From positions 1 through 29,745 of IMG/VR virus record IMGVR_UViG_3300032053_000364: a stretch of DNA of 29,745 nt; one strand, given 5' to 3'. The notes below the pieces were generated by a model. The model was not told where the DNA came from. It searched no databases and saw only the letters and a list, made by a program, of their open reading frames with translations. This stretch comes from a virus. The position numbers and the translations under genes are program-made. Each line of letters starts with the position of its first letter. Position 1 is the first letter of the stretch. Positions 2-18,227 of this stretch are shown here, in pieces.

Positions 2-1156
2 AACGGGATTGTCCGCGCGCTTGCCCGCGACGTTATCCGCCACCCCGATAACTGCCGTGCCGTCTGCGACTGGGGCAACATCATGTGGTTCAACGTCGGC
101 CTGGGGCTGTACGGCTACCTGGGGGGCACACTCGTCAACGTCGGGGCCAACGAGAAGCTCCGCCTGGAGGTCCCGAGCGCCGACGAAAGCGACCTCCAGG
201 GGCGGATTACCTGTGTTCTCGGCGGACATCCCCGCTGGCTCTTCGCAGTTATGAAGACGCTCTCGGGCAAGTATTTCCTGATGAAGTTCGACGGCGACCC
301 GACACCCGGCCGCGGCTGGCATCCGGTCTGGACGCCGGGCGGCACGACGGCGATCACGGCGCTCTACTGGTATCACGCTCAGGGACTTCCCCCCCGGCTG
401 ATGATGGCCGTGGGCAACTCTATTGCCTATATGAAGATGTCGGAATACTCCGACGACGGACTCCTCGATCCTTATTGCCGATTCACCTCCTACGGGACGG
501 TGGGGCTCCCGGCCCACTCCCTGAACCTGCCAAACGTCCAGAAGGCGTTTGTCGCCATTCACGCCGACATCGGGCATCGCTACCTGGTGGCCGGCGTTCC
601 CGTGATAGGGGAGGACGCTAGCGGGGAGACCTTCGTTGATCTCATCTACTCCGTCGACGGAGGGACAGAGGAGACCCTCGCCCGCGTCTACGAGGCCGGG
701 CTGGTGCACCGCGAGTTCAGCATCCCGACGACCGGAAAGTGGCTGGCGCTCAAGGTAGGGCTGGGCTCGTCAAACGTGAACGGCGAGAAGTGCGCCCTCG
801 TTCACCTTCTCATGGCCGAGGAGGAGCTCATCCTGCAACCGAGGCAGGAGTGGCAGGTAGATATCCTTGTCGGAGAGGGCATAGACCGGCGCGAGAGCCG
901 GGGCCTTGAACAGCAGTTGGTCGACCTGGAGACCGCGCGCGGCGCCGGGCCCGTGGACGTCACCACCATCCGGGGTGAACAGAAGGTCGGCATTGTCCGC
1001 GCCCTGCCAAAGCGGGAAGTCAACCCGCGGGAGAAAGAGATGTTCCCAACGTCGGCCTGGGTAGTGCCGGTGGTCATCAGGGAGTACGGGCCGCGGTCGG
1101 TAGCGTACTACTTCGACGACGACGAGGCGCGGTTCGACACAGCAACGTTCGCTTAG
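2..1156 (+). CDS. Tail-associated structural protein, 5' end cut by window
   Basis: The frame is open from base 2 and the first visible Met (base 83) lies mid-protein, so the true start is outside the window. About 384 residues are visible, ending in FDTATFA. The sequence is rich in Trp, Tyr and Gly and in short beta-strand-like segments, as in beta-propeller or beta-sandwich tail proteins. The last 130 residues contain charged stretches such as VDILVGEGIDRRESRG. No signal peptide or membrane segment is seen. It is followed after 12 bases by another rightward gene with a strong SD (GAGGGAGGG) and then by the lysis genes, the usual place for tail-tip or baseplate proteins. The tail role is inferred from context and composition, not from a recognised domain. 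Confidence 0.7.
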   Translation, partial: NGIVRALARDVIRHPDNCRAVCDWGNIMWFNVGLGLYGYLGGTLVNVGANEKLRLEVPSADESDLQGRITCVLGGHPRWLFAVMKTLSGKYFLMKFDGDPTPGRGWHPVWTPGGTTAITALYWYHAQGLPPRLMMAVGNSIAYMKMSEYSDDGLLDPYCRFTSYGTVGLPAHSLNLPNVQKAFVAIHADIGHRYLVAGVPVIGEDASGETFVDLIYSVDGGTEETLARVYEAGLVHREFSIPTTGKWLALKVGLGSSNVNGEKCALVHLLMAEEELILQPRQEWQVDILVGEGIDRRESRGLEQQLVDLETARGAGPVDVTTIRGEQKVGIVRALPKREVNPREKEMFPTSAWVVPVVIREYGPRSVAYYFDDDEARFDTATFA

Positions 1157-1168
1157 AGGGAGGGCATC

Positions 1169-1969
1169 ATGGGACTCTATCAGGCAACCCCAGGCGCGAA
1201 GATCACCGCGGCCGAGTGGAACACCTTCTACAACCTGCTCAAGGGCGTCGTGGGCGGAGAGGACACCGTGAGGCTGGCGGGCAACGTGGCCGACACCCTC
1301 TTGCTCCAGCCCAACACCGACCCCGCCAGCATCGTCAAGCTGTTCGGCATCAAGAAACAGGCGGGGACGGAGAGGTTCGCCCTGCGGTCGGACGGCATCC
1401 CCGTGCTGGCTGACCAGGCAGGGACGCCGGGAAGCCTTGAGAATGGGATGCTGTGGCGGAACTCGATCGGGTTCTACGGGCGGCTCGACGGGGTGACGGT
1501 GGAGCTGGGCATGTCAACGATACCCAAACTCACCTACACCACTCGCCTCGCGGGTGATCTGACGAGTACGGTGACGGCATTCGCTAACGCCACGGGGTTG
1601 TCCTTCTACATGCTTGCCAACACGGACTACTCCTTCGATGTGCGCCTGATCTTCCAAACCGCCGCGACGACCACGGGTATCAACCTTGCTATCAACGGCC
1701 CAGCGTCGCCGATATCGGTAGTCGCCCTTTGCGAAGTTGTGCAGGAAAGCCTCCTCCGAGTAGACGATTGTCGGTCATACGACAATGCCACTGCCTTTCT
1801 CACGACGGGGATTGACGCTGCGAATAGCGACAGCATCGCTACCATTCGGGGTATCGTTCGTAACGGCGCCAACGCAGGCAACCTCATCGTCCGCTTCGCA
1901 TCGGAAGTCGCGGCGAGTCAGGTCACGATAAAGGCCGGGTCCTTCATCCGCTGGCAACAACTCAACTAG
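1169..1969 (+). CDS. Putative tail fibre / appendage protein
   Basis: A 266-residue protein starting at an ATG behind GAGGGAGGGC. The N-terminus (ITAAEWNTFYNLLKGVVGG) is helical and resembles the short start segment seen in many phage tail appendage proteins. Residues 30-110 contain a passage about the entity having a value per element (VRLAGNVADTLLLQ, ENGMLWRNSIGFYGRLDG), a style common in phage fibre proteins. The C-terminal half is rich in Thr, Ala and Asn beta-strands and ends in FIRWQQLN, which would suit a jelly-roll-like head domain. It lies between a tail-type protein and two membrane proteins. A host-recognition role is an inference; no catalytic motif is visible. Confidence 0.6.
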   Translation: MGLYQATPGAKITAAEWNTFYNLLKGVVGGEDTVRLAGNVADTLLLQPNTDPASIVKLFGIKKQAGTERFALRSDGIPVLADQAGTPGSLENGMLWRNSIGFYGRLDGVTVELGMSTIPKLTYTTRLAGDLTSTVTAFANATGLSFYMLANTDYSFDVRLIFQTAATTTGINLAINGPASPISVVALCEVVQESLLRVDDCRSYDNATAFLTTGIDAANSDSIATIRGIVRNGANAGNLIVRFASEVAASQVTIKAGSFIRWQQLN

Positions 1970-1984
1970 CAGGAGGGGTGCGCC

Positions 1985-2203
1985 ATGAACCCGAAGGAGT
2001 GGGCAGAACTCGTTGGCAACCTGGGCATCGCGCCCGTGATCGCCCTCATCGTCCTGCTGCGGATAGAGCCGAGCATCCGCCGTTTGGAGAAGGCGATCCT
2101 CCTCTTCGTGGCCGCCAACGGTTCTACCCCGAAGCTAAAGAACAAGGCCCTAAAGACTCTCGGCATCGACCTGGCGGACATCCTGGAAGACGGGGAGGAA
2201 TAA
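1985..2203 (+). CDS. Small single-pass membrane protein, possible holin-like
   Basis: A 72-residue protein with a strong SD (AGGAGGGG) before the ATG. Residues 11-26 (GNLGIAPVIALIVLLR) form one hydrophobic segment. It is followed by a basic amphipathic helix and an acidic tail (DLADILEDGEE). It lies two bases before another small membrane protein and two genes before the endolysin, the classical position for holins or antiholins. Single-pass proteins of this size next to an endolysin can be antiholins or membrane-tethered accessory proteins. The lysis role comes from position only. Confidence 0.6.
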   Translation: MNPKEWAELVGNLGIAPVIALIVLLRIEPSIRRLEKAILLFVAANGSTPKLKNKALKTLGIDLADILEDGEE

Positions 2204-2205
2204 CC

Positions 2206-2415
2206 GTGTCCACTCGCGCCTTCAAGATAGCCTGGGCGAGCTGGGCGGCGGTCGGGGCAGGCCTAGAGGTCTGGGCGCTCAGGGACAAGGAGAAGGGCGA
2301 CACCCTCAGCGAGCAAATATGGGGGTTGTTCAAGTGGCCCGTGCTCTGGTGGACCGGCGCCGGGCTGCTGGTCTGGGCAGTGATTCACTTCCTGGGCAGA
2401 GGGAAGTACGGATAG
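2206..2415 (+). CDS. Small two-pass membrane protein, holin candidate
   Basis: A 69-residue protein starting at GTG, behind GGGGAGG and two bases after the previous stop. An in-frame upstream ATG at 1978 would overlap the whole preceding gene and is less likely. Two hydrophobic segments, about residues 6-24 and 44-63, flank a short charged loop (ALRDKEKGDTLSEQ), and the protein ends in a short basic tail (GRGKYG). Size, topology and position directly before the amidase fit a class II-type holin. Similar short proteins with a DTLSE-then-Trp-rich helix pattern occur near tail genes in other phages and are often unassigned, so the holin call is tentative. Confidence 0.6.
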   Translation: MSTRAFKIAWASWAAVGAGLEVWALRDKEKGDTLSEQIWGLFKWPVLWWTGAGLLVWAVIHFLGRGKYG

Positions 2416-2429
2416 AGAGGGAGGTCACC

Positions 2430-2990
2430 ATGCCGACAGTGAAGGCCTACGGTATCGAGGTCGCCGATGTGCGCTACCTGTTCCCCGACGCGCCAGACAG
2501 GAGGTGCTCGCTCTACCACCCGCCGGAGAACATCCAGGGGATCGCCCTGCACCACGACGGCATCCTCATGGCGCCGGGGGACATGGACTACAACGGCACC
2601 ACGCTCGACGAGGACATGGAGCGGCTCCTGGCGATCTACAACTCCGACCTGCAACGGCTCGGCGGCTTCCCGTACCACCTCGTCGGCTCGCCGAACGGTC
2701 GCCTCTTCTGGACCCGGTCTCTCTATACCTGGGGGGCTCACGTCGAGAGCATGAACGACCGTCTGCTTGGTATCGCCATCATGGGGGACTACCGCAAGGC
2801 AGAGCCGCCGGCGGGGGGGCTGTGCAGTCTCTCACTAGGCCTCATCGTCCTGTGGCGGTTTCTCGGGCACCTGGTGGGCGTCCAGGGACATCAGAAGTGG
2901 ACGGCGGGAACCGAGTGTCCGGGTCCCGCGCTGTGGCTGCCGAAGGTGCTAAAGTTCGCGGAGTTCAACGCGCCGCGCTTCCCCGCCTAG
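2430..2990 (+). CDS. N-acetylmuramoyl-L-alanine amidase endolysin (amidase_2/PGRP type)
   Basis: A 186-residue protein. The ATG at 2430, behind GAGGGAGGTC, is preferred over an upstream in-frame start that would overlap the membrane protein gene. It matches the zinc amidase_2/PGRP fold: IALHHDG with the first zinc His at 41 or 42, FPYHLVG around Tyr82, LLGIAIMGD at 112-120, and a C-terminal GHQKWTAGTECPG with His154 and Cys163 as the other zinc ligands. Proteins of this family cut the bond between N-acetylmuramic acid and L-alanine in peptidoglycan. No cell-wall-binding domain and no signal peptide are present, so it should need a holin to reach the wall. Its stop codon overlaps the stop of the convergent gene by four bases. 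Confidence 0.85.
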   Translation: MPTVKAYGIEVADVRYLFPDAPDRRCSLYHPPENIQGIALHHDGILMAPGDMDYNGTTLDEDMERLLAIYNSDLQRLGGFPYHLVGSPNGRLFWTRSLYTWGAHVESMNDRLLGIAIMGDYRKAEPPAGGLCSLSLGLIVLWRFLGHLVGVQGHQKWTAGTECPGPALWLPKVLKFAEFNAPRFPA

Positions 2991-3400
2991 TCGAACGTCG
3001 GCTCCGGCGGTAGAAGCTCCCCGCTCTTGTATCTGACCACACGCGCCTCTTCCTCGAGTGTGAGCGGCATGTTCGGCTCGTACCACCCCTGCGCCATCCC
3101 CTCGCGTCTCACGATCAGGAAAGCCCTGTCCGCCTGTTCTGCCGCGAAGAGCATCTCCAGATCCCGACGCCGTTCACTGAGAGAGAAGCGGCGCCGGCAC
3201 ACGGGGCAAGCGTACTCGCGGCGGTGTGCCGGCGTCATCTTCTGAGCTAAGGGCGATGTCGGGGCCTTGCTTAGCTGGATGCCGTGGCAGAGGAACACGG
3301 CCAGGTCGTCGTCTCGGTCGCGGGGCATGAGGTGGTACATCCGCATGGTGGGATAAACGATCTCAGCCAAGAGGAGCATGTCCCGCGGCGTTGCGGCCAT
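2987..3400 (-). CDS. Conserved-looking hypothetical protein with a CxxC motif
   Basis: A 137-residue protein, the last of a leftward cluster. The ATG is preceded by GAGGTGCAG, two bases after the upstream gene's stop. Residues 60-80 contain YACPVCRRRF (Cys65, Cys68), with Cys38-His39 earlier, so a small metal-binding site is possible. The rest is helical and charged, with RAFLIVRREGMAQGWYEPNMP in the C-terminal half. It converges with the endolysin, and no terminator hairpin is seen at the four-base stop overlap. I do not recognise the family. Confidence 0.6.
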   Translation of the reverse strand: MAATPRDMLLLAEIVYPTMRMYHLMPRDRDDDLAVFLCHGIQLSKAPTSPLAQKMTPAHRREYACPVCRRRFSLSERRRDLEMLFAAEQADRAFLIVRREGMAQGWYEPNMPLTLEEEARVVRYKSGELLPPEPTFD

Positions 3401-3402
3401 CT

Positions 3403-3717
3403 TTACTTCTGCACCTCATCCTCGAAGATGATCTCCAGCCGCTCCACTGTTCGCCCCGTGAACAACTCCGCCACCATCGCCAGGGTGTACTCCAGCGATT
3501 CGGTCGCCAGGAGAACGCCGGCGCCCTCGACTATGACGGCGTAGCCGACTGTGGCCGCGGCGTGGATCTCCACCCTCTTCGAGCGGGGGACCCTATCCGG
3601 TGGGCTCGTCGCCGGTGGGCTCTCCGAGGGGGGGTCCAGTGGGGTCTCCGGTCTCTCCGGCTTCGCCTTCCGCTTCGCCGCTATCGGGGTCGGCTCCGAC
3701 TGACGCTTCTGAGGCAT
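3403..3717 (-). CDS. Hypothetical protein with Pro/Lys-rich N-terminus
   Basis: A 104-residue protein starting at the ATG at 3717, behind a very good SD (AGGAGG, six bases away). A longer in-frame start at 3774 lacks this SD. The first 50 residues are low-complexity (KPERPETPLDPPSESPPAT). Residues 52-104 form an ordered-looking part, VEIHAAATVGYAVIVEG then LFTGRTVERLEIIFEDE, compatible with a small alpha-beta domain. It overlaps the upstream gene by 125 bases in another frame, both frames being low-complexity there. Function unknown. Confidence 0.55.
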   Translation of the reverse strand: MPQKRQSEPTPIAAKRKAKPERPETPLDPPSESPPATSPPDRVPRSKRVEIHAAATVGYAVIVEGAGVLLATESLEYTLAMVAELFTGRTVERLEIIFEDEVQK

Positions 3718-3943
3718 GGGATTCCTCCTGTTCCGGCTCGGCCTGCACTGGCTCGAACGGGTCTGCGACCGCATCGGTGCGGGGAACCGCCAGTCGGCCG
3801 ACGACGCGCAAACCGAAGCAGACCAGGCAGTACGTACCGTTGAGGTTCGGGGGGTCCTGCCCTTCCACGAGCAGGGCCTCGGGCCAGTGGTGCCCGACGC
3901 CGCAGCGGAACATCTCCCCCTTCTTAGCTCTCCTGACTTTCAT
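3593..3943 (-). CDS. Hypothetical zinc-ribbon-like protein with acidic tail
   Basis: A 116-residue protein with SD AGGAGAC before the ATG. The N-terminal 50 residues hold a likely metal site: FRCGVGHHW (Cys14, His18, His19) and TYCLVCFG (Cys39, Cys42). The C-terminal half is a disordered acidic Glu/Gly/Pro tail (GEAEGEAGETGDPTGP). The 3' end overlaps the next gene by 125 bases and the 5' end overlaps the gene before it by 20 bases, implying translational coupling. The fold suggests nucleic-acid or protein binding, but I see no specific family. Confidence 0.6.
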   Translation of the reverse strand: MKVRRAKKGEMFRCGVGHHWPEALLVEGQDPPNLNGTYCLVCFGLRVVGRLAVPRTDAVADPFEPVQAEPEQEESHASEASVGADPDSGEAEGEAGETGDPTGPPLGEPTGDEPTG

Positions 3944-4349
3944 GACGGTCTCCTTTCGTACCTTCGATGAACTCTGCCACTATCGCCCATCCCTTATCGA
4001 TCAGACGGTTGATGTGGCGACGGTAGGTGTGAAGGGCCCTCGCCGCTGCGTCCTGCCGACATCCCTTCACGTCGACAAGATAGACGGCGGCATGGGCCTC
4101 CGGGTCGACGAGTTTGAGCATCTCGAGGGCTTGGGTGAGCTGATAGCGGCTGAGGATGGAGCGGGATTCTACCTGTGCGCGGCGTAGGGTTTCGCGTTCT
4201 GGGTGGGAAGAGAGAGCGCCTTCATGCTGCCCGAGAAGGGGGGGCCACTCCGCGCGGACAGGGAACTCCCGCAGTTCCAGCCGCCAGAGCATCTTCGCGG
4301 CCTGGCGGTAGGCGCGCCCTAGCTGGAGCCACTTGTCGCGATCGGTCAT
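3924..4349 (-). CDS. Putative DNA-binding regulator with sigma-region-4-like HTH
   Basis: From the ATG at 4349 the protein has 141 residues. A longer TTG start at 4427 would coincide with the -35 box of the promoter at 4401-4427, so it cannot be used from that promoter. Residues 70-128 look like a sigma region 4 or ArpU/RinA-type helix-turn-helix: LTQALEMLKLVDPEAHAAVY, then GCRQDAAARALHTYRRHINR as the probable recognition unit. It heads the four-gene leftward cluster and lies near the integrase. A role in controlling phage transcription is inferred from the motif and position. The SD before 4349 is weak (AGG next to the ATG), so the exact start is unsure. Confidence 0.55.
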   Translation of the reverse strand: MTDRDKWLQLGRAYRQAAKMLWRLELREFPVRAEWPPLLGQHEGALSSHPERETLRRAQVESRSILSRYQLTQALEMLKLVDPEAHAAVYLVDVKGCRQDAAARALHTYRRHINRLIDKGWAIVAEFIEGTKGDRHESQES

Positions 4350-4400
4350 CCTGATGTGGACGTCGGGCCTGAACGCCGGAAAAGTACCGAGCACGACCTC

Positions 4401-4427
4401 ATTATACACGCTGGCGGAAAAAGTCAA
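4401..4427 (-). promoter_or_regulatory. Sigma70-like promoter for the leftward 4349-2987 cluster
   Basis: On the minus strand TTGACT (4427-4422) is followed after 15 bases by a perfect TATAAT (4406-4401). The spacer is two bases shorter than ideal. It lies 12 bases downstream of the stop of the small membrane gene at 4440 and about 45 bases before the ATG at 4349. Confidence 0.6.
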
Positions 4428-4439
4428 GAGGGGAGGGCG

Positions 4440-4616
4440 CTACCCCTTCACCACGCGCTTGACAAATGCCCAGGCCAGTCGGCAGGCGACGGCAACCATG
4501 AAAATAACCAGGCCCTCGAGGTCCTGATAGGCGATCGTGGCGACCAAGGCGACGACGATGATGACAACCCAGGCGCACCTTTCCCTGTTGCTGATGGACT
4601 TCCACAGTCGAGACAT
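4440..4616 (-). CDS. Small two-segment membrane protein (58 residues)
   Basis: A 58-residue ORF from ATG 4616 to TAG 4442-4440, behind a GGGGCAGGGG purine-rich SD. It starts MSRLWKSISNRERCAW. Hydrophobic stretches at about residues 15-29 (AWVVIIVVALVATIA) and 34-50 (EGLVIFMVAVACRLAWA) are followed by a basic end (FVKRVVKG). The positive-inside pattern fits two membrane helices with the tail in the cytoplasm. It lies just downstream of the integrase and may be co-transcribed with it. Small membrane proteins expressed from the lysogeny module are sometimes superinfection-exclusion proteins; that role is speculation here. Confidence 0.55.
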   Translation of the reverse strand: MSRLWKSISNRERCAWVVIIVVALVATIAYQDLEGLVIFMVAVACRLAWAFVKRVVKG

Positions 4617-4642
4617 AATCCCCTGCCCCCTTTCGTGCGCGA

Positions 4643-5500
4643 TTATACTACCCGCGTCAAGCGGTCGACGGGGTTGAATCTGCGTTGAGCCTCCAGCGCG
4701 CGGTCGGCGGCGAAATATCGCGCGTAGCGTAGGGACATGGCGATCGTGCCGTGCCCCAGGATTTCCTTTAGGTCGCCGACGTCCCCGCCGGCCGCTAGGA
4801 ACTCATGGGCGAAGGTGTGGCGGAAGCGGTGGACGTTAGCGCCGGCGACGCCCGCTCTTTCCCCCAGGCGTTCGACGAGGTGATAGAGCGAGTCGGAACG
4901 TAGGTGCCCGCCGTTCAGCCCCGGAAAGAGCCAGCCGCGGCGGATGTGCTCGGTGTACACGTAACCGTGTAGGGCATCGAGGACCCGTTGACCGGGGGCG
5001 ACGCGGCGGCTCTTGCCGCCCTTGCCGTTGCGGATGAGGATCGTTCCCTGCTCCCAGTCCACATCGCCCACCTCCAGGCAGACGAGCTCGTTCGCCCGCA
5101 TCCCCGTCGCCAGCAGGAGGAGGATGAACGTCCGGTCGCGGGGTCTGGGGGTGTCCCCCAGGAGTCGCCGGAGCTCGAGGTGGGAGTACGGGCGGATGGG
5201 CACGTCCCTTTCACGGGGCACGGGGATATCGGCGAGGGGGTTCTCAGCGCCTTGCCAGCGCAGGAATGAGCGCAGGGCGAAAAAATAACCTCTGACAGTC
5301 CAGCGGGCGTAGAGGCCGTAGAGGGAGGCGAGCCAGGGGGCAGCGAGTCCGGGGCAGGGGCAACGCCGGTTCTCTCGGCAGAAGCGGGCGAAGTTGCCCA
5401 GCGCCGAGAACGTTGTCTCTACAGTGTGAGGGCTCCTTCCTAGTGCTTGTAGGTGCTGGCGGTAGGCATCCGTGCTGGCCGCCCACGTCGAGCGTGCCAT
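4643..5500 (-). CDS. int: Tyrosine site-specific recombinase (phage integrase)
   Basis: A 285-residue XerC/XerD-type recombinase. I chose the second ATG (5500), because GGGAG lies six bases upstream of it but directly abuts the ATG at 5506. Residues 1-85 form the SAM-like core-binding domain (ALGRSPHTVETTFSALGNFARF). The catalytic domain shows ATGMRANEL (Arg135), NGKGGKSRRVA (Lys160 or Lys163), VHRFRHTFA (His224, Arg227), ILGHGTI (His250) and the nucleophile Tyr259 nine residues later. There is no N-terminal arm-binding domain of lambda type. It should recombine attP with the host attB, and a tRNA-Ala-like attP candidate lies about 500 bases upstream at 5998-6041. Confidence 0.9.
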   Translation of the reverse strand: MARSTWAASTDAYRQHLQALGRSPHTVETTFSALGNFARFCRENRRCPCPGLAAPWLASLYGLYARWTVRGYFFALRSFLRWQGAENPLADIPVPRERDVPIRPYSHLELRRLLGDTPRPRDRTFILLLLATGMRANELVCLEVGDVDWEQGTILIRNGKGGKSRRVAPGQRVLDALHGYVYTEHIRRGWLFPGLNGGHLRSDSLYHLVERLGERAGVAGANVHRFRHTFAHEFLAAGGDVGDLKEILGHGTIAMSLRYARYFAADRALEAQRRFNPVDRLTRVV

Positions 5501-5513
5501 GCACATCTCCCAA

Positions 5514-5539
5514 AGATACTATCGGCGGGGAAAGTATCT
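5514..5539. repeat. Inverted repeat between repressor and integrase
   Basis: AGATACT (5514-5520) and AGTATCT (5533-5539) form a perfect 7-bp inverted repeat with a 12-base loop, in the short gap upstream of the integrase start. It could be an integrase arm site, an operator or a weak transcription stop; nothing in the sequence decides between these. Confidence 0.4.
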
Positions 5540-5560
5540 GCCAAAGGGTAGAGGCCGGGG

Positions 5561-5812
5561 TTAGACGGCGGTCTTCACCTTCGGCGGGGACTCGTAGACT
5601 TTCACAGCGAGCATACCGACATCCACGCCGAGAGCAACCGCGAGACCTTCCAGGGTCTCACGCCGTGGGCGCTCCGAATCGCCTGTCTCGATGGCCTGGA
5701 CCGCCCGGAGGGTCAAGGGGTATCCCTTTTCTTGCCCGCGGGCGGCGGTCTGCTCCAGAGTGAGACCCTGCGAGATGCGAAGGCGCCGGACGAATTGACC
5801 GAGAGCTGTCAT
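5561..5812 (-). CDS. XRE-family HTH repressor, CI-like
   Basis: An 83-residue protein starting at ATG 5812 (MTALGQFVRRLRISQGL). A longer GTG start at 5851 would lie upstream of the promoter and is rejected. The helix-turn-helix covers residues 5-60: FVRRLRISQGLTLEQTAARG, then LTLRAVQAIETGDSERPRRE as the recognition and closing helices, and LEGLAVALGVDVGML. It has no C-terminal cleavage or dimerisation domain, so it is shorter than lambda CI and resembles small single-domain XRE repressors. It faces the rightward early promoter, with palindromes between them, and precedes the integrase in the same direction. It is the likely keeper of lysogeny, although a Cro-like or antitoxin-type role cannot be excluded. 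Confidence 0.75.
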   Translation of the reverse strand: MTALGQFVRRLRISQGLTLEQTAARGQEKGYPLTLRAVQAIETGDSERPRRETLEGLAVALGVDVGMLAVKVYESPPKVKTAV

Positions 5813-5819
5813 AGAATCC

Positions 5820-5848
5820 ACGGTAGCAGGTCGACCGCGTTTTGTCAA
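5820..5848 (-). promoter_or_regulatory. Repressor promoter giving a near-leaderless transcript
   Basis: On the minus strand TTGACA (5848-5843) is separated by exactly 17 bases from TACCGT (5825-5820). The expected start site falls at about 5812-5814, at the repressor ATG, so the mRNA would be leaderless, as for lambda cI from PRM. No SD precedes the ATG. Confidence 0.55.
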
Positions 5849-5883
5849 CACTTCGGGCCACCCTTCTTGAAATATATTTTGCC

Positions 5884-5904
5884 CAAGGGGGGTTTACCCC
5901 CTTG
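5884..5904. promoter_or_regulatory. Operator candidate 1 (perfect inverted repeat over -35)
   Basis: CAAGGGGG (5884-5891) and CCCCCTTG (5897-5904) are perfect 8-bp arms around a 5-base centre. The right arm overlaps the -35 box TTGACA (5902-5907) of the rightward promoter, so a bound repressor would block RNA polymerase. The XRE repressor at 5561-5812 is the obvious candidate ligand. Confidence 0.5.
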
Positions 5905-5929
5905 ACAAGACTTACCCAATGGGTACAAT
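5902..5929 (+). promoter_or_regulatory. Rightward early promoter (PR-like)
   Basis: TTGACA (5902-5907), a 16-base spacer and TACAAT (5924-5929) make a strong sigma70-type promoter with a start near 5936. It diverges from the repressor promoter and carries two palindromes. It points into the long early operon that begins at 6388. Confidence 0.75.
5913..5925. promoter_or_regulatory. Operator candidate 2 (perfect palindrome over -10)
   Basis: TACCCA-A-TGGGTA is a perfect 13-base palindrome lying in the spacer and touching the -10 box of the early promoter. Its sequence differs from the 5884-5904 repeat apart from runs of C and G, so the two may bind different proteins. Confidence 0.5.
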
Positions 5930-5959
5930 GAAGGGGCACAGAAATAGGGAGAGCTTGGG

Positions 5960-6391
5960 ATGACAGAGGAAACCCGCGAAGACACAGAACAGACCCCTTC
6001 CGCCTGCCAGGCAGGCGCTCTCCCAAATGAGCTACAGCCCCACCATTGGGAGGCAAACGGATGGAAGTCTGCCGCTCCTAGCCTACCATCTTCCCTCTCC
6101 TCAAACAACAATCGACCCATCCAGCGCGTTCCCGCCGCCGTGTCCACCTCGCCACCAGCACGGGCGGCGGTCGCGACTTCTTTCCCTGCCCCGGCCCGCG
6201 AGGTTACGCACCCCAAGCTCTCCGAACGGGCCGGGGAGCAATCATCTCTTCACGTTTGCGCGTCTGTAGGAAAGGAGAGTGCCAGTGCGATAACCAGTCC
6301 AGCCAGACAAGAGAGTGCTAATCAGACGGGGGCCGCCCGTAACGAGGGCTCGGCTCGGGCGGCCCCACCAAGAAGGCGAGGTGAAACATGA
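5960..6391 (+). CDS. Doubtful leader ORF (143 residues)
   Basis: An open frame from ATG 5960, about 24 bases after the predicted PR start site, with AGGGAGAG as a possible SD. Its stop overlaps the ATG of the next gene (ATGA at 6388-6391), which would favour coupling. Against it, the protein is low-complexity, rich in Ser, Ala, Pro and Arg, and runs through a tRNA-like segment and two strong hairpins, with no recognisable fold. The same bases are better explained as a structured leader and attachment site. It may be partly translated, but I doubt it encodes a conserved protein. Confidence 0.2.
   Translation: MTEETREDTEQTPSACQAGALPNELQPHHWEANGWKSAAPSLPSSLSSNNNRPIQRVPAAVSTSPPARAAVATSFPAPAREVTHPKLSERAGEQSSLHVCASVGKESASAITSPARQESANQTGAARNEGSARAAPPRRRGET
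5998..6041 (-). other. attP core candidate: 5' half of a tRNA-Ala(GGC)
   Basis: On the minus strand, from 6041 downward, the sequence reads GGGGCTG (acceptor arm), TA, a D-arm of GCTC / ATTTGGGA / GAGC, G, CCTGC and the anticodon loop CTGGCAG with a GGC anticodon. After that the match to tRNA-Ala breaks down, and no T-arm or 3' acceptor strand follows, so this is not a working tRNA by itself. CGCCTGCC-A-GGCAGGCG (6001-6017) is a perfect inverted repeat across the anticodon stem-loop, the symmetry expected of a tyrosine-recombinase core site. With an integrase nearby, I read this as attP for integration into a host tRNA-Ala gene at the anticodon loop. Confidence 0.6.
6080..6108 (-). promoter_or_regulatory. 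Candidate promoter upstream of the half-tRNA
   Basis: On the minus strand TTGTTT (6108-6103) and TAGGCT (6085-6080) are 17 bases apart, about 39 bases upstream of the tRNA-Ala 5' end. The boxes are imperfect. Integration would join this half to the host 3' half, and this site could then drive the restored tRNA. Confidence 0.3.
6189..6236 (+). other. Strong leader hairpin A
   Basis: CCCCGGCCCG (6189-6198) and CGGGCCGGGG (6227-6236) are perfect 10-bp arms around a 28-base loop, in the transcribed leader of the early operon. There is no U-run after it, so it is not a classical intrinsic terminator. Confidence 0.5.
6329..6366 (+). other. Strong leader hairpin B before the first early gene
   Basis: GGGGCCGCCCG (6329-6339) and CGGGCGGCCCC (6356-6366) are perfect 11-bp arms around a 16-base loop, ending about 20 bases before the ATG at 6388 and just before its SD. 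There is no U-run. It could shape translation or RNA stability of the early transcript, or act as an antitermination signal. Confidence 0.5.
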
Positions 6392-6771
6392 GAGGACAAC
6401 CACAGCACAAGGCACTGGTCGGGGCCGTGCGGCCGATACGGCCCTCGGTAGTGCTACCGCGCTGGCCGGAGGAGCAGCTCCAGGCGCTCGAATACATGGC
6501 GAAGTTCTTCGGCCACATCCAGGTCGACTTCCGCCTGCGGTCCTTCGACGAGCGGCCGGCCATTCATATCGAGTGGCGGACGAACTGTACGAAGTGCGGG
6601 GCGACGCAGGCGGGCCACTACCTGCATCGCTTCTCCTGTGAGGAGCCAGTCTTCGAGACGAAGCTGGTCTACCACTACCAGCCGGACGAGGAGCGGCAGG
6701 CGATCCTTATGTCCCGCTTCGACATCCTGGAGACACTGAAAGACTGGAACGCGGAGTGGGCGGAGAGATGA
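6388..6771 (+). CDS. Hypothetical protein with CxxC motif, first early gene
   Basis: A 127-residue protein with GAGGTG as SD. Residues 30-60 (EEQLQALEYMAKFFGHIQVD) are helical. A single NCTKCGATQAGHYLH motif around residues 66-80, with Cys90 later, could bind a metal. The C-terminus is helical and charged (FDILETLKDWNAEWAER). It is the first clear gene after the early promoter and leader and overlaps the next gene by four bases (ATGA). Early phage proteins of this size often modify host functions, but no family is recognised. Confidence 0.65.
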   Translation: MRGQPQHKALVGAVRPIRPSVVLPRWPEEQLQALEYMAKFFGHIQVDFRLRSFDERPAIHIEWRTNCTKCGATQAGHYLHRFSCEEPVFETKLVYHYQPDEERQAILMSRFDILETLKDWNAEWAER

Positions 6772-7067
6772 GCGCGAAGGATGAGGCGTGGGCTGCCCTG
6801 GACAGGTGGATGACCCGCTGGTTCACGGGAGTCTCCAGCATAACGATGCACGAGGCCGATACGGTTCGCGGTCTTGTTGCGGCCATCGCCGCCGCCGCTG
6901 TCGCTGAGGCGCGAGCGCCGCTGGTGGAGGCGCTGAGAGACTGCCACGTCCTGCTTCAAGACGCCCACTATGAGTATGACTTGTTGGGACGGAACTTCTG
7001 TGGGCCAGATGTGGCAAAGGTCATTGAGGCCGCCGCCGCCGCCCTAGCGAAGGGAGAGACGCCATGA
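6768..7067 (+). CDS. Small hypothetical helical protein
   Basis: A 99-residue protein from ATG 6768, overlapping the previous stop as ATGA, with GGAGAG upstream; an in-frame ATG at 6756 is less well placed. It is mostly helical with an Ala-rich core (VAAIAAAAVAEARAPLVEAL). It shares a start (SAKDE) and an end (ALAKGETP) with the following gene, and the internal VAEARAPLVEAL resembles VAEAGAPLVAEV there. The two look like relatives derived from a duplicated early-gene unit. Function unknown. Confidence 0.6.
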   Translation: MSAKDEAWAALDRWMTRWFTGVSSITMHEADTVRGLVAAIAAAAVAEARAPLVEALRDCHVLLQDAHYEYDLLGRNFCGPDVAKVIEAAAAALAKGETP

Positions 7068-7678
7068 ACGCGAAAGATGAGCGCCTAGAACCCATACGTC
7101 AAGCCCTACGAGCGGCGGGACTTTTGACTGCTGATACCACACCAGTAGCCGAGGCAAAGATGGTCAGTGTAGCGGCTTGGCGGGGAACTCTCGCACTTAC
7201 AGACGGTAGCGATCAGTACGAGCGAACCGAGGCGTGTGTTCTCTATGAAATTGCGGTGGATGAACTCTGCGATGCCTACGCCGCCCTCTGTGTCGCTGAG
7301 GCGGGAGCGCCGCTGGTGGCCGAAGTGAAACGCTTGAAAGCCTGGGTAAACGATCTTCAGGCTGGAATGTATATCAACTGCGTGTACTGCGGGCACCGCT
7401 ACGGGCCGGATACCGAGGTCGCGGCGTCTATGGCGGAGGTTCTCAAGGAACACATCGCGCAGTGTGCCCAACATCCGCTGAGGGCGGCGATGGCCCAGGT
7501 TAGGGAGCTGGTGGAGGTACTACGCGCCGTCGAGTGGCCGGAGATACACCACCGGACGGCCATCATCGGAAGACTCTGCCCAGGCTGCGGCAACTGGAAG
7601 GGCGATGATCCCGACTACAACTACCACGCGCCCGACTGCCCCCTTGCTGCCGCTCTAGCCGTGAAGGAGACGCCATGA
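7064..7678 (+). CDS. Hypothetical protein with two Cys/His finger-like motifs
   Basis: A 204-residue protein overlapping the previous gene by four bases. Residues 105-145 contain CVYCGHRYGPD followed by HIAQCAQHPLRAA, a Cys2/His-Cys finger-like module that recurs in many phage hypothetical proteins. Near the C-terminus LCPGCGNW then HAPDCPLAAAL forms a second similar motif. Together they suggest two small zinc modules joined by helices. It shares its first and last residues with the preceding gene. A nucleic-acid or protein contact role is likely in general terms, but the specific function is unknown. Confidence 0.65.
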   Translation: MNAKDERLEPIRQALRAAGLLTADTTPVAEAKMVSVAAWRGTLALTDGSDQYERTEACVLYEIAVDELCDAYAALCVAEAGAPLVAEVKRLKAWVNDLQAGMYINCVYCGHRYGPDTEVAASMAEVLKEHIAQCAQHPLRAAMAQVRELVEVLRAVEWPEIHHRTAIIGRLCPGCGNWKGDDPDYNYHAPDCPLAAALAVKETP

Positions 7679-7932
7679 GTGACCCGGATCTCAAGGTGGG
7701 GCAACTGGCGCGGGTGCTCGACCCGAACGAGAGAACGGACGGGAAAGGTCCGGGCCCCTGGCACTACGGGAAGGTGGTCGCTTTCACTGCCGACGCCGGG
7801 GGCAGACAGCACCCCATCCTGGAGCTTCTGAGCGTTCTGATGCCCGGCTGCGCACAGGTGACCGGCTACTACTTCACCCGCATAGACAGGGAGCGCGTGG
7901 AGCGAGCGTTTCACACGTTCTCGGATAACTAG
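7675..7932 (+). CDS. Small hypothetical, SH3-like beta-rich protein
   Basis: An 85-residue protein with an ATGA overlap with the gene before it. The sequence LKVGQLARVLDPNERTDGKG then HYGKVVAFTADAGG reads like a small beta-barrel (SH3/KOW-type) with a long loop, ending in YYFTRIDRERVERAFHTF. No catalytic residues stand out. It belongs to the run of small early genes between the promoter and the nuclease. Confidence 0.55.
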   Translation: MSDPDLKVGQLARVLDPNERTDGKGPGPWHYGKVVAFTADAGGRQHPILELLSVLMPGCAQVTGYYFTRIDRERVERAFHTFSDN

Positions 7933-7945
7933 GAGGAAGGCGACG

Positions 7946-8314
7946 ATGACAGAAATGACCGTGAAGATAGACCCAGACGTAGTAGCGGCTCACATTCAGG
8001 CGGCCGTAGCGAAGGCGCTTGGGGAAAACCCCGATGCCCTTGTCAAGGCGGTCGTCGATGAGGCCATGAAGGTCAAGCAGAATAGCTACGACAAGAAGAC
8101 CGTCTTCCAGACAGGGGTTGAGAACATGATCCGGGAGGTGGCGAGCAAGGTCTTCCGTGAGTGGCTCGATACCAAGCGCGAGGATATCCGGAAAGCGATA
8201 GAGGCGCGCCTAAAGGCAGGCGGCGACGCTTTTGTAACCCAGGCAGCCGACAAGCTGGTCGCCGCATTGAGCGACAACTTCTATGTGAGCATAAGCCTCA
8301 AGGTAGAAGACTGA
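7946..8314 (+). CDS. Hypothetical helical protein
   Basis: A 122-residue protein behind an AGGAGGAAGG-type SD. It is almost entirely helical and charged, with regular hydrophobic spacing (VVAAHIQAAVAKALGE, EVASKVFREWLDTKREDIRK), and ends in a short beta strand (NFYVSISLKVED). Such proteins often form coiled-coil dimers. It lies directly before the nuclease gene with a 17-base gap. Function unknown. Confidence 0.6.
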   Translation: MTEMTVKIDPDVVAAHIQAAVAKALGENPDALVKAVVDEAMKVKQNSYDKKTVFQTGVENMIREVASKVFREWLDTKREDIRKAIEARLKAGGDAFVTQAADKLVAALSDNFYVSISLKVED

Positions 8315-8331
8315 CGAAGGAGGAAGGCGTC

Positions 8332-9330
8332 ATGACTACAACTACCGAACCCGTGGCCGGACTCTACGCCGCTCGGCTACGGGCGGACTTCGAGCACATG
8401 ATGGAGGCGCGGTCCAGCGTGGCAACCGCCCGCTGGAACAACCCGTCGCAGATGGGCCATCCCTGCGACCGCTTCCTCGTGCTGCGCCGGACGAAGGGCG
8501 CCGTGCAAAGGCCCTTCCCGCCGAGCCTACAGGCGCGGTTTCTCATGGGGACGGAGATCGGCAAGCTGGCCGTCCGCATGATCATGGACATGGGGTGGGA
8601 CGTGAAGAGCATCGAGCGTCCGGCGGAGTGGAAGCAGTACCAGATCTCCGGCCGCCCTGACCTGGAAGCGAGACCGTCCGGCAACGGCAACGGCCACGCC
8701 AAGTACGTTCCGTTCGAGGTCAAGAGCGTCCACCCTAACCTCATGCGGGGCGTGACGACCTACCAGGACATCATCCACAACAAGAACTGGCGTGTTCGCA
8801 ACTGGGTCAGCCAGCTCATGATCTACGAGCTGCTAGACGGCCACGAGGAGGGGATACTCCTACCCATCGGTCTGACGGGCTGGTGGGAGCCGGTCGCCGT
8901 ACCCCTGGACTACGAGCACGCTGAGACGCTGCTCAAGCAGTGCGAGCGGGTGAACGCGCACGTCGCCGCCGGCACGGAGCCGGAGCCGATCTGCGACCCC
9001 GATGTCTGCCCCGGCTGCTCGTTCTTCCAGACGCCCGCCTGCGACATCAGGCTCGCACTCTCGGCGGACGTCTCGGTGGAGACCGACGAGGAGACCATCG
9101 CCGAAGTCCGGCGAATGCTCGAACTCAAGCCGCTGTCCTCTGAGTATGTGGCCATCCAGAAGCGCCTCAAGACACGGTACGAGGGGGTGACGAACCTGCT
9201 GGTGCCGGACCTGTGTATCGTCGAGGGCAAGCTCCAGACGCGGAACGTGAAGGAGGCGCCGGCGCGCGTCGATGAGTTCTGGACGCTCAAGTACATGCCG
9301 CTGGCGGCGACGGGGGAGGAAGAGGAGTGA
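8332..9330 (+). CDS. PD-(D/E)XK nuclease, Cas4/AddB-like with Fe-S cysteines
   Basis: A 332-residue protein starting at ATG 8332 behind GGAGGAAGG; an ORF start further upstream at 8161 overlaps the previous gene and is rejected. Motifs of the RecB/Cas4 nuclease fold are present: GRPD at 107-110, EVK at 129-131 and QLMIY with Gln161 and Tyr165. Cys45 (GHPCDRF) plus Cys226, Cys229 and Cys237 (CPGCSFFQTPAC) have the one-plus-three spacing of the 4Fe-4S cluster in Cas4 and AddB. It should cut DNA from ends with metal help, in phage recombination or DNA processing. The following Gp3-like gene and the RusA gene support a recombination module. It is not near a CRISPR array. Confidence 0.8.
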   Translation: MTTTTEPVAGLYAARLRADFEHMMEARSSVATARWNNPSQMGHPCDRFLVLRRTKGAVQRPFPPSLQARFLMGTEIGKLAVRMIMDMGWDVKSIERPAEWKQYQISGRPDLEARPSGNGNGHAKYVPFEVKSVHPNLMRGVTTYQDIIHNKNWRVRNWVSQLMIYELLDGHEEGILLPIGLTGWWEPVAVPLDYEHAETLLKQCERVNAHVAAGTEPEPICDPDVCPGCSFFQTPACDIRLALSADVSVETDEETIAEVRRMLELKPLSSEYVAIQKRLKTRYEGVTNLLVPDLCIVEGKLQTRNVKEAPARVDEFWTLKYMPLAATGEEEE

Positions 9331-9331
9331 G

Positions 9332-9511
9332 ATGGCGTTAGAGGTGCTGTGTGATCAGTGCGGGGCCAGCGTTTTGAACCCGGAGAGACATTGGCAGACG
9401 TACCTCAACGGCCCGCCCGGCTGGAAGTTGCCGTCGGACTGGCGCCGCATCGAGAAGAGGGGTCAAGTCGTCTATCTATGTTACGAGTGCATCGCGGAGG
9501 ACGAGGAATGA
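9332..9511 (+). CDS. Small zinc-ribbon protein
   Basis: A 59-residue protein starting one base after the nuclease stop, with GAGGAAGAGGAG as SD. CDQCG at the N-terminus and YLCYEC at the C-terminus give a CxxC/CxxC zinc-ribbon pattern with about 38 residues between the pairs. Translation is likely coupled to the nuclease. Small zinc ribbons of this kind are common as unassigned phage proteins. Confidence 0.65.
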   Translation: MALEVLCDQCGASVLNPERHWQTYLNGPPGWKLPSDWRRIEKRGQVVYLCYECIAEDEE

Positions 9512-9618
9512 GTCGGCTGATCTTCTGGCTAGTATTCAACGGGCCGCGACTGCCGGGGCCCCTGGCGCCCTGGCTTATGAGTCTGGCGCTCGGTCGTCGA
9601 CCCCATCGCAGAAAGTGA
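9508..9618 (+). CDS. Very small basic hydrophobic protein (36 residues)
   Basis: The ATG overlaps the stop of the zinc-ribbon gene (ATGA) and the ORF is 36 residues long: MSRLIFWLVFNGPRLPGP, then a hydrophobic stretch (LAPWLMSLALG) and a basic end (RRPHRRK). The overlap and the following gene's spacing (nine bases, with its own SD) make it possible, but its size means chance cannot be ruled out. Confidence 0.4.
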   Translation: MSRLIFWLVFNGPRLPGPLAPWLMSLALGRRPHRRK

Positions 9619-9627
9619 GGGCGTGAG

Positions 9628-10911
9628 ATGGCAATTGGACGCTACAAGGGACTGGGCCGGCTGCCCCGCCTCGGCAAGATCCACCTCGGCGTCAAGGCGC
9701 TAAACGCCAACGGCGTCGAATACCCAAAGGCCGTCGACTACTTCGTCTGCCCACCGGAGCTCCAGGCGCTTGAAGGTATCGGCCCCAAGCCGCAGGAGCT
9801 CCGGGTCATGTTCTTGCAGAACGAGATCGACAGGGTTGCTTCGCTGTACTACCGGGCCTACGGCAGCGGGACCGGCCTCGTCTGCAAGGGCGACGGGGAG
9901 ATAGCCAGCGCCGTCGTCGACCTGGCGGCGTGGACGCGCGCAAAGAAGCAGGTCCAGGCGGGCATCTGGGCCACCTCGCAGTCGGCGAAGACGGAGCGGG
10001 TCGAGATACCCTGCGCTGGCGAGGGCGGTTACGGAGTCGATGCCTGCCCTCACTACGACGCGAAGAAGTGTCGGCGGGTGATGATGTTGCAGGTCGTGGT
10101 GCTCGGAGCGCCGCGGCTCGGCGTCTACCAGATCGACACCGGCAGCTACTACGGCACGGTCAACATCCTGGGCTGGCTGGAGATGATCCAGGGTCAGTTC
10201 GGCGGACGCATCGCCGGCCTGCCGATGATCCTGCGCCTCGTGCCCCAGGAGGTGACGGTAGAGGGCAAGAAGAAGACCGTGAGGGTGCTTCAACTGACGG
10301 CAGAGGGCGACGCCGAGCGGTTCCTCGAGCTCGCCATGATGCCGATTCGGGAGGCGATCGCCACCCGGACCCGTCTCGCCTTGCCGGAAGGCCGAGAGGC
10401 AGAGGTCCTCGAGGGCGACCTCGTCGAGCCGGACGAACAGGGCGCGGCGGTCTTCTGTGGCGACCCCTCGGAGTTGCCGGCGGAGGAGGAGGTCGAGGGA
10501 CTGACTACGCCAGCAACTCCACCGACGCAGGCAGGCCTCGACCTAGCGCCACCGGACTTCCCACCCGCGCCGCCGGAGGACCCGGAGGGCGACGACGGAC
10601 TCGCGGCGGAAGCCGACGCTGCTATTCAACAGCGAGGGGCAAAGGCCGGGCGTGGTACTGAGGGCAGGGGCGTTACGCCTTCCGCTCCTGCTGCTCCCCA
10701 GAGGGCTCCAACAGCCGCCCGGCCCGCCCCCCAACCTGCCCGAGGCACAGAGAGAGCTTGTGTGCATCTCTTAAAGTCTGAGGTCGCCCGCTTCGAGGCG
10801 ATAGCCAGGCAGAAGCACCTAGAAGGCGGCGTCTGCCTGTGCTGTGGGGGAGCCTACGGGCCCGCAGGAGGCGGCTACTGCAAGAGGTGTGAACCCAAGA
10901 CGACCGGATGA
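9628..10911 (+). CDS. Gp3/RDF-like phage protein with C-terminal zinc ribbon
   Basis: A 427-residue protein. Residues 1-240 match a phage family often annotated as Gp3-like or recombination-directionality-factor-like: LGKIHLGVKALNANG, VDYFV, GPKPQELRVMF, GTGLVCKGDGE, then the conserved YQIDTGSYYGTVNILGWLE, FGGRIAGLPMILRLVPQEV and KKKTVRVLQLTA. A Pro/Ala-rich linker (about 290-380) leads to a C-terminal zinc ribbon CLCCGGAYG...CKRC. Cys130-Cys139 and Cys148 may form another site. The phage integrase is of the tyrosine type, whereas phiC31 gp3 serves a serine integrase, so an excisionase role is doubtful. The position after the nuclease fits a DNA-binding or annealing partner. Confidence 0.55.
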   Translation: MAIGRYKGLGRLPRLGKIHLGVKALNANGVEYPKAVDYFVCPPELQALEGIGPKPQELRVMFLQNEIDRVASLYYRAYGSGTGLVCKGDGEIASAVVDLAAWTRAKKQVQAGIWATSQSAKTERVEIPCAGEGGYGVDACPHYDAKKCRRVMMLQVVVLGAPRLGVYQIDTGSYYGTVNILGWLEMIQGQFGGRIAGLPMILRLVPQEVTVEGKKKTVRVLQLTAEGDAERFLELAMMPIREAIATRTRLALPEGREAEVLEGDLVEPDEQGAAVFCGDPSELPAEEEVEGLTTPATPPTQAGLDLAPPDFPPAPPEDPEGDDGLAAEADAAIQQRGAKAGRGTEGRGVTPSAPAAPQRAPTAARPAPQPARGTERACVHLLKSEVARFEAIARQKHLEGGVCLCCGGAYGPAGGGYCKRCEPKTTG

Positions 10912-10947
10912 GCGACTGCCGCCTGACGGCAGAGAAAGAGAGTCAAG

Positions 10948-11265
10948 ATGCAGGCCTACAATCCCAACGCCACCTGTCCAAAGTGCGGCAGCGAGGACAT
11001 CGATACCCAGTTCCGTCCGACCAAACAGGTCGAGGACGTGGTTCTCGACGGGTACTCCTACGGCGAGTTCCTGCGGCGGGACTGCCAGAACTGCGGCTAC
11101 GCCTGGGGGCAACTGACGGTGGCCGAGGCCCAGAAGGAGATTGAGCGGGAGACCAAGCAGGCACTCCAGGAAGCCATTGGCAACGCTCGAGCTGAGGCGG
11201 CGATGGAGGCGCTTAAGACTGTCTCACCGGAGGGGGTGGACGAAGAGGCACCAACCCCCGCCTGA
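10948..11265 (+). CDS. Small zinc-ribbon protein
   Basis: A 105-residue protein with AAAGAGAG upstream of the ATG. CPKCGSEDIDT at residues 10-20 and CQNCGYAW at about 49-56 form a classic CxxC-n-CxxC zinc ribbon, followed by a charged helix (AQKEIERETKQALQEAIGNA). The same arrangement occurs in other phage proteins and in transcription-factor-like ribbons. It follows the Gp3-like gene after 36 bases that contain a 6-bp hairpin (CTGCCG/CGGCAG). Function unknown. Confidence 0.65.
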   Translation: MQAYNPNATCPKCGSEDIDTQFRPTKQVEDVVLDGYSYGEFLRRDCQNCGYAWGQLTVAEAQKEIERETKQALQEAIGNARAEAAMEALKTVSPEGVDEEAPTPA

Positions 11266-11289
11266 ATGAGCCGCCCGGTCAGCGGCGAA

Positions 11290-11321
11290 ACCGGCTGGTT
11301 GTGCGGGAACCGCCAGCCGGT
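11290..11321 (+). other. Intergenic hairpin, no U-run
   Basis: ACCGGCTGG (11290-11298) and CCAGCCGGT (11313-11321) are perfect 9-bp arms around a 14-base loop, in the 155-base gap 11266-11420. The same gap holds two copies of CCCGCGGGT (11341-11349 and 11382-11390). It may be an RNA structure that separates the two gene groups. Confidence 0.45.
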
Positions 11322-11420
11322 CGCGGGAGACCAGGTCCGGCCCGCGGGTTACTTCCGCCGGTCTCAACAGCCGTTCTCCTGCCCGCGGGTCGTGAAAAGA
11401 GCGACTAGCAGGGAGGCGAG

Positions 11421-11867
11421 ATGCCACGTAGTAGGGCATACCAGGACACCGGAGTTAGCGCCTACAAGACGCAGGAAGACCTTGACTCCCTGATTTCCAG
11501 GTACGGGGTTCAGATTACGCGGTGGACGAACTTCCCTGACCTCATCCGCTTCGAGTTCCAGCTTAACCGCGTCGGTTATCGCGTAGATGTCCCCGTCCCG
11601 CCTGGCCGCGATGCAAAAGAGCGCGACCAGTTGCGACGCGAGAAGGCGCGCGTCCTGTTCTACTACATGAAGGCTAAGATGACCGCCGCCGAATCTGGCG
11701 TCGCCGATCTCGCCCACGAGTTCCTCTCCTTCATGATCACCGGCACGGACCGCGTGTTCTTCCAGGACGTTGACGACGCGATGCAGCAGGGCGCTCGTAG
11801 CCTGCCGTTCGGGCAGGATTCCCCCCTGCTGACTGAGGGAAAAGGGGACAACCCCGGAGTCGACTAG
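11421..11867 (+). CDS. Conserved phage hypothetical protein
   Basis: A 148-residue protein with CAGGGAGG as SD. It matches a recurring phage pattern: YKTQEDLDSLISRYGVQI at the start, a beta strand (FPDLIRFEFQLNRVGYRVDV) and then a helix with REKARVLFYYMKAKMTAAESG that leads into HEFLSFMITG. Phage proteins of this shape are usually found near recombination or replication genes. It directly precedes RusA (12-base gap), so a role in the same process is likely, but no biochemical activity is known to me. Confidence 0.65.
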   Translation: MPRSRAYQDTGVSAYKTQEDLDSLISRYGVQITRWTNFPDLIRFEFQLNRVGYRVDVPVPPGRDAKERDQLRREKARVLFYYMKAKMTAAESGVADLAHEFLSFMITGTDRVFFQDVDDAMQQGARSLPFGQDSPLLTEGKGDNPGVD

Positions 11868-11879
11868 CAAGGAGGCAAC

Positions 11880-12410
11880 ATGCCAGCAAGGACGTTCGAC
11901 GTGTTCGTGCGCGGCATCCCGAAGCCGCAGGGCTCCGGTCGCGCCTTCCTCAACAAGAAGACTGGACAACCCATCTACGTCAGCAAGACGCGCAACGTCA
12001 GTGAGTGGCGTCAGGCGGTCAAGGGCATCGTGGCGTGGCAGTGGGAAGGGCCACCGATCGACGGCGCCGTCGCCCTCTCGCTGGTCTTCATCTCTACCCG
12101 CCCGAAGTCGGCCCACAAGCGGGTCTTCCACACCGTTACGCCGGATGTCGACAAGCTCACGCGCGCTGTCAGCGACGCCTTGAAGGGCGTGGCCTACACC
12201 GACGACTCACGGGTCATCAGCAGCGCACCTACCAAGCTCTACGGCGACGAGCCGGGCGTCCACATCCTGCTACGTGAAATCGAGAGTCCCGACGATCTCT
12301 TCGCGTTCTATCTGGCCCACGGCCAGCGAGTGTTCGACCTGCTGAATCCCCTCGAAAGGAGTCAACATGGCAAAAGCAACACCGAAGAAGGACCCCCAGC
12401 AGCACTTTGA
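11880..12410 (+). CDS. rusA: RusA-type Holliday junction endonuclease
   Basis: A 176-residue protein with AAGGAGG as SD. It carries the RusA motif TPDVDKLTRAVSDALKGVAY then TDDSRVI: Asp89, Asp91 and Asp109 match the acidic residues of E. coli RusA (Asp70, Asp72, Asp91) and Arg95 lies at the position of its Lys76. It should cut four-way junctions to resolve recombination or replication branches before packaging. The C-terminal 40 residues (ERSQHGKSNTEE and onward) go beyond the domain and overlap the next gene by 44 bases. It belongs with the nuclease and Gp3-like genes in one recombination module. Confidence 0.85.
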   Translation: MPARTFDVFVRGIPKPQGSGRAFLNKKTGQPIYVSKTRNVSEWRQAVKGIVAWQWEGPPIDGAVALSLVFISTRPKSAHKRVFHTVTPDVDKLTRAVSDALKGVAYTDDSRVISSAPTKLYGDEPGVHILLREIESPDDLFAFYLAHGQRVFDLLNPLERSQHGKSNTEEGPPAAL

Positions 12411-12672
12411 GGAGGAGTTCCTCGAAGACACCGAGCTGGAACAACTCATCACCGACCGCCTGCTGACGGCGGAGGCAGCGCGGAAGCACGGGAGCGCCAA
12501 CCGCAAGTTGAAGGACGCGATAGCGAAGAGGGGCCTCAAGGACGACGTCCGCTACCGGGTCGACCAGTACGTCTTCCGGCTGGCGAGCCACAGCCGCGCG
12601 GCGCATGAGGTCGACGGCGGCACCACCCGGCGCTTCGCCGAGCTGGAGGTTGTGAGCGAGGGCGAGGAATAG
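12367..12672 (+). CDS. Hypothetical protein overlapping RusA
   Basis: A 101-residue protein with the strong SD AAAGGAG seven bases before the ATG, inside the end of rusA. It is acidic at the N-terminus (QHFEEEFLEDTELEQLIT) and then helical and basic (AARKHGSANRKLKDAIAKR), ending in FAELEVVSEGEE. The 44-base overlap in another frame and the good SD suggest translational coupling with RusA. No domain is recognised. Confidence 0.6.
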   Translation: MAKATPKKDPQQHFEEEFLEDTELEQLITDRLLTAEAARKHGSANRKLKDAIAKRGLKDDVRYRVDQYVFRLASHSRAAHEVDGGTTRRFAELEVVSEGEE

Positions 12673-12674
12673 GG

Positions 12675-12703
12675 CGCGGCAGTAACCCCGCTGTCCTGCC
12701 GCG
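12675..12703 (+). other. Intergenic hairpin, no U-run
   Basis: CGCGGCAG (12675-12682) and CTGCCGCG (12696-12703) are perfect 8-bp arms with a 13-base loop. A second, imperfect GC stem follows (GGGTTCGGGCT against CGGCCCGACCC, 12712-12752). They fill the 101-base gap before the gene at 12774. Confidence 0.45.
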
Positions 12704-12773
12704 TTCGTGGTGGGTTCGGGCTGGAGAACCAAATGAGACTCGGCCCGACCCGCCTATGTAGGGAGGTACAGAT

Positions 12774-15027: not shown

Positions 15028-15036
15028 GAGGTTTCT

Positions 15037-18198: not shown

Positions 18199-18227
18199 GG
18201 TGGCCGGCACGCCGCGTCCTGCTGATC

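Follow-up and report, generated by a model that had tools for sequence, protein, structure and literature searches.

The locus examined here raises the question of how a phage that carries only part of a host tRNA gene would integrate, and what would become of that tRNA once it had done so. The locus lies in a linear IMG/VR virus record of 29,745 bases, the whole of which was analysed and is referred to below as the window. On the minus strand, positions 6041→6003 (GGGGCTG TA GCTC ATTTGGGA GAGC G CCTGC CTGGCAG G) correspond to positions 1-39 of tRNA-Ala(GGC) on inspection of the window sequence. The parts can be assigned as the acceptor strand GGGGCTG, the D arm GCTC-ATTTGGGA-GAGC, the anticodon strand CCTGC and the anticodon loop CTGGCAG (6004-6010, minus strand), which holds the anticodon GGC. 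BLAST searches against tRNA-Ala genes agree with this assignment: a phage tRNA-Ala gave a match of 86% over 57 nt, and tRNA-Ala of single Chloroflexota genomes gave E values down to 3e-10. The original prediction of a minus-strand tRNA-Ala(GGC) 5' half starting at 6041 is therefore upheld by both sequence and BLAST. It had also stated that no T-arm follows the half, and this too was confirmed, as neither ARAGORN nor Rfam reported a tRNA in the 29,745-base window and the 3' half is thus undetected there. By the same two programs, a full-length tRNA-Ala gene of the phage itself is likewise absent from the window, though the contig is linear and a region outside it may hold one. BLAST matches to Erythrobacter phages were rejected as att sites because they are ordinary complete tRNA-Ala genes, and an Rfam match to aceE-II at 24960 was rejected as far below the gathering score.

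The half-tRNA adjoins an integrase-HTH module. A tyrosine integrase of 287 aa is encoded on the minus strand at 4643-5506 (PF00589, E 2e-29; PHROG integrase families), followed by an HTH regulator, probably the repressor, on the same strand at 5561-5851 (PF13560 and PF01381). Other proteins of the window include a DUF3987 primase-like protein, RusA, a Dam-type methylase, an amidase-like protein and a large terminase. Contigs 84-93% identical to the window in the portal-like protein (24815-26722) are present in the same collection, and one of them, G007 (IMGVR_UViG_3300032053_000303), also carries the att region and an integrase 80% identical to that of the window.

Comparison with G007 showed that positions 6003-6044 (42 nt) are identical in the two contigs, set in an att region that is otherwise about 71% identical. 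The identical block covers tRNA positions 1-39 and the 3 nt that precede them, and beyond the anticodon loop both contigs turn to unrelated sequence at the same place. Identity over 42 nt exceeds what chance would give, the probability (0.71^42, about 6e-7) being only a rough figure because the two contigs have other long identical stretches in common. Syntenic phage genes continue on both sides of the block in both contigs, so that what is shown is an attP and not a prophage junction. Among the other virus contigs searched for the same half, G007 was the sole match. An 8-1-8 inverted repeat at 6001-6017, which may provide core sites for the integrase, is exact in the window as first described; the anticodon arm makes up most of it, however, and in G007 it is reduced to 6-1-6, which means that the outer part lacks conservation.

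The original prediction had proposed a tRNA call on a reconstructed attL. We joined the window half at the anticodon loop to the 3' halves of five Chloroflexota tRNA-Ala(GGC) genes, and ARAGORN called the product as tRNA-Ala(ggc) for three of the five hybrids. Of the remaining two, one received a call with no clear anticodon and the other failed; their source genes differ in the anticodon stem. The G007 half likewise gave tRNA-Ala(ggc) in the sole hybrid tried.

A genome scan using an alignment of the integrase yielded distant relatives, mainly from Chloroflexota and Actinomycetota MAGs, several of which directly adjoin complete tRNA genes. In longer regions, we defined the ends of the elements by direct repeats. 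The elements L070 (tRNA-Arg tct), L072 (tRNA-Pro tgg) and L074 (tRNA-Val gac) are integrated in Chloroflexota genomes in the 5'-half orientation: the direct repeat is the 5' half of the tRNA (40-43 nt) and stops at or just past the anticodon loop, the intact tRNA stands at the integrase end, and an orphan 5' half is found at a distance of 9.3-15 kb. The two repeat copies share no sequence in their upstream flanks, the intact tRNA is preceded throughout by element DNA, and joining the host flanks by script gave an intact tRNA, i.e., the empty site can be restored. All three are in the integrated state and exemplify the mode proposed for the window. The ordinary 3' half is used by L071 (tRNA-Gly) and L076 (tRNA-Thr). 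Beside the integrase of two phage contigs we found a tRNA-Gly(TCC) 5' half (L003; Gly(TCC) was read from the sequence by eye) and a tRNA-Arg 3' half (L004), respectively. In a tree of 18 integrases, the window and G007 form their own long branch and the 5' and 3' modes are mixed elsewhere, so orientation is not a stable property of clades in this sample.

We also searched bacterial genomes for a host half matching that of the phage, as had been suggested, and no match was obtained. An exact 37-mer of the 5' half was absent from 84,980 bacterial and archaeal species; a 39-mer with up to three mismatches was absent from 400 Chloroflexota, 296 Actinomycetota and 299 Pseudomonadota genomes; and a 33-mer with up to three mismatches was absent from two further phylum draws, the first of which mostly repeats the searched Chloroflexota genomes. 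No integrated copy of the window phage, with an intact tRNA and a displaced 5' fragment, was found in the genomes searched. As no host genome was found, the window phage was nowhere seen integrated, and the proposed comparison of prophage junctions succeeded for the three distant integrase relatives, which show 5'-half junctions, but yielded none for the window phage itself.

To the right of the HTH gene, a strong sigma-70-like promoter on the plus strand (TTGACA-16-TACAAT at 5902-5929, 11/12; TTGACA-16-TAAAAT in G007) reads across attP. It was the sole plus-strand site of its class in the scanned interval of 5500-18300, and attP lies between this strongest, lytic-type phage promoter and the rightward genes, a placement of larger consequence that the original prediction had overlooked. 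The first conserved gene of the right arm is a plus-strand ORF at 6388-6771, with DNA about 80% identical in G007. The frame of another plus-strand ORF, at 5960-6391, crosses attP and has a Shine-Dalgarno-like sequence and an ATG at 5960 that are conserved in G007. In G007 this frame runs on into a NUMOD3-HNH protein (L023 5057-5797, minus), with no in-frame ATG, GTG or TTG from attP to the NUMOD3 motif as read from the sequence and translation. The NUMOD3-HNH endonuclease gene stands just to the right of attP in G007 and is absent from the window. We also noted inverted repeats, GGGGGTTTACCCCC and TACCCAATGGGTA, that flank the plus-strand promoter (5880-5930) and are operator-like, of which only GGGGGTTTACCCCC partly recurs in G007, and a GC-rich hairpin, GGGGCCGCCCG...CGGGCGGCCCC (6329-6366), shortly before the 6388 gene, which lacks a T run and is nearly unchanged in G007.

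Taken as a whole, we put at roughly 85% the probability that 6003-6044 is the attachment site of the 4643-5506 integrase and that its use rebuilds the tRNA with the phage 5' half. The half-tRNA is very probably an attP in the rare 5' orientation, and the core of the original prediction is very likely right. Strand exchange would take place in or beside the anticodon loop, the crossover region indicated by the divergence of both phages and by the ends of the relatives' repeats, and would leave the original 5' half of the host gene, with its promoter, at the far end of the prophage. With the 5' half in attP, the tRNA rebuilt on integration would combine the phage 5' half and its upstream region with the host 3' half. 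The predicted junctions are phage 6041→6004 followed by the tRNA-Ala 3' half, and the host tRNA-Ala 5' half followed by GGCAGGCGGAAGGGGTCTG. That the phage would supply both the 5' half and the upstream region, as first claimed, is supported by the conservation of the half in G007 and by the mode seen integrated in three relatives. Weighing against this explanation, neither a host nor an integrated copy of the window phage came out of the genomes searched, the integrases of the integrated relatives share no more than 27-34% identity with that of the window and lie upstream of the rebuilt tRNA in L070, L072 and L074, the window integrase being on the other side of the core, and the candidate tRNA promoter is weak.

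This candidate, TTGTTT-17-TAGGCT on the minus strand (6080-6108; -35 at 6108-6103, -10 at 6085-6080), was named in the original prediction. The pair is present and has a counterpart in G007 (TTGCGG-17-TAGACT), with the same spacing and position and with TTG and TAG(A)CT kept; however, it has 6/12 consensus matches, and about 70% of shuffled sequences score as well. Of 51 tRNA genes in related loci, 5 have TAGRCT upstream, compared with about 0.4 expected, for a motif picked after being seen, and we treat this recurrence as a lead and not as proof. From geometry alone, the region upstream of the rebuilt tRNA would be phage DNA.

Phages frequently carry tRNA genes, and a phage tRNA gene that had decayed and was never used by the integrase would lack its 3' half just as this one does. 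We nevertheless find this very improbable given that the 42 nt are unchanged in two phages and end at the same anticodon position, that the repeats of the integrated relatives stop at this position as well, and that the half adjoins the integrase-HTH module. The block might instead be kept for the plus-strand ORF at 5960-6391 or for a leader RNA, its likeness to a tRNA being the relic of a disused attP. The conserved promoter and ATG that are read across the block, and the continuation of the G007 frame into the HNH protein, would suit such a role, yet codon-position counts to the right of the block gave no sign of protein constraint on the window ORF, the block follows the boundaries of the tRNA, and the integrase ORF is intact in both phages; we hold this account to be very improbable too.

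A rival of another kind accepts the same attP and disputes only its consequences for gene expression. The main explanation includes, with less certainty and as judged from the map, the view that integration would leave the displaced promoter of the host tRNA facing the HTH and integrase genes and would sever the promoter at 5902-5929 from the rightward genes until excision. Integration could then act as a promoter switch at attP, a reading suggested by the anatomy of the locus. In the circular form of Tn916, too, a promoter at one end meets the genes of the other end only in the excised circle, as proposed here; Tn916 is a conjugative element and not a phage, and unlike in the window no tRNA is involved. 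It is a tentative and rather doubtful proposal that integration is itself part of the lysis-lysogeny switch, with the rightward promoter disconnected, the host tRNA-Ala promoter captured for the HTH repressor and integrase, and the host tRNA made dependent on the phage. There is a slightly better than even chance that the attP has no regulatory role, the right arm having other promoters and the displaced host promoter being terminated before the HTH gene. Our promoter scans used one consensus only, the 5'-half orientation needs no regulatory reason, and the modes are mixed in the wider integrase set, all of which favor this simpler account; against it stand the lack of any other plus-strand promoter of the 5902-5929 class from 6045 to 18300 and the terminator-like sites between the core and the HTH gene, which are weak, near chance and without a counterpart in G007.

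Returning to the proposed promoter switch, in each of the five independent 5'-half cases examined (window/G007, L003, L070, L072 and L074), the first element gene past the displaced 5' half ran in the direction of the orphan host promoter; with a chance of about 3%, this is suggestive only, as judged from ORF calls alone and with a test chosen after looking. In L070, this gene starts an operon for an ABC transporter, permease, binding protein and FGGY kinase. The L070 element (593-15666) is a 15-kb island in a Chloroflexota MAG, in which the displaced tRNA-Arg 5' half and host promoter precede the sugar-transport operon by about 60 nt.

The original prediction called the arrangement an uncommon design. 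It is indeed rare, as 159 of 3,919 tDNA islands in Islander have 5' fragments and 3,760 have 3' fragments (PMC4383910), and a passage in PMC6563490, citing Zhao and Williams (2002), describes recombination at the 5' region of tRNA genes as considerably rarer than at the 3' region. A 5'-half attP is thus a rare known orientation and not a new design. Like the tDNA elements with a 5' fragment (PMC4383910), the window has a tyrosine integrase (PF00589) and an anticodon-region attachment site, its attP fragment rebuilt a tRNA in silico (3/5 hybrids), and the element would provide the rebuilt tRNA with its 5' half and the DNA upstream. Unlike those elements, the window presents a phage-type attP that is read directly and is crossed by a strong phage promoter, and its integrase lies on the opposite side of the core from that of the three integrated relatives found. 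Mycobacteriophage BPs (PMC4557955) also has attP in the integrase-repressor control region, with leftward integrase and repressor genes and a gene structure altered by integration. In BPs, however, attP is inside the repressor gene and the repressor is shortened, whereas the attP of the window (6003-6044) is outside the HTH ORF (5561-5851), between the divergent promoter and the right arm. In tRNA-dependent lysogeny (PMC10865867), as here, the function of a host tRNA gene struck by integration must come from phage DNA. In that system, about 10 bp are common to attP and attB, the tRNA is not rebuilt, and a complete tRNA gene is carried by the phage; the window, in contrast, carries half a gene, from which the tRNA would be rebuilt.

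If the main reading is true, the prophage would hold the first half of a host tRNA gene as well as its control region, and an ordinary host tRNA promoter would be open to use by the element. The 5'-half and 3'-half relatives found can be used to test whether tRNA orientation sets which element genes the host promoter drives, and they also make silencing of the right arm by integration alone testable.

Two further observations concern the integrases of these elements. The protein encoded at 9628-10911 of the window gave a Pfam match to 'Gp3-like', a family of recombination directionality factors that takes its name from a serine-integrase phage, and the sole integrase identified so far in the window phage is a tyrosine integrase. 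In L071 (9657-16491), tandem islands occupy one tRNA-Gly gene, with three copies of a 45-nt 3' half and two integrase genes, one between each neighbouring pair of 3'-half copies.
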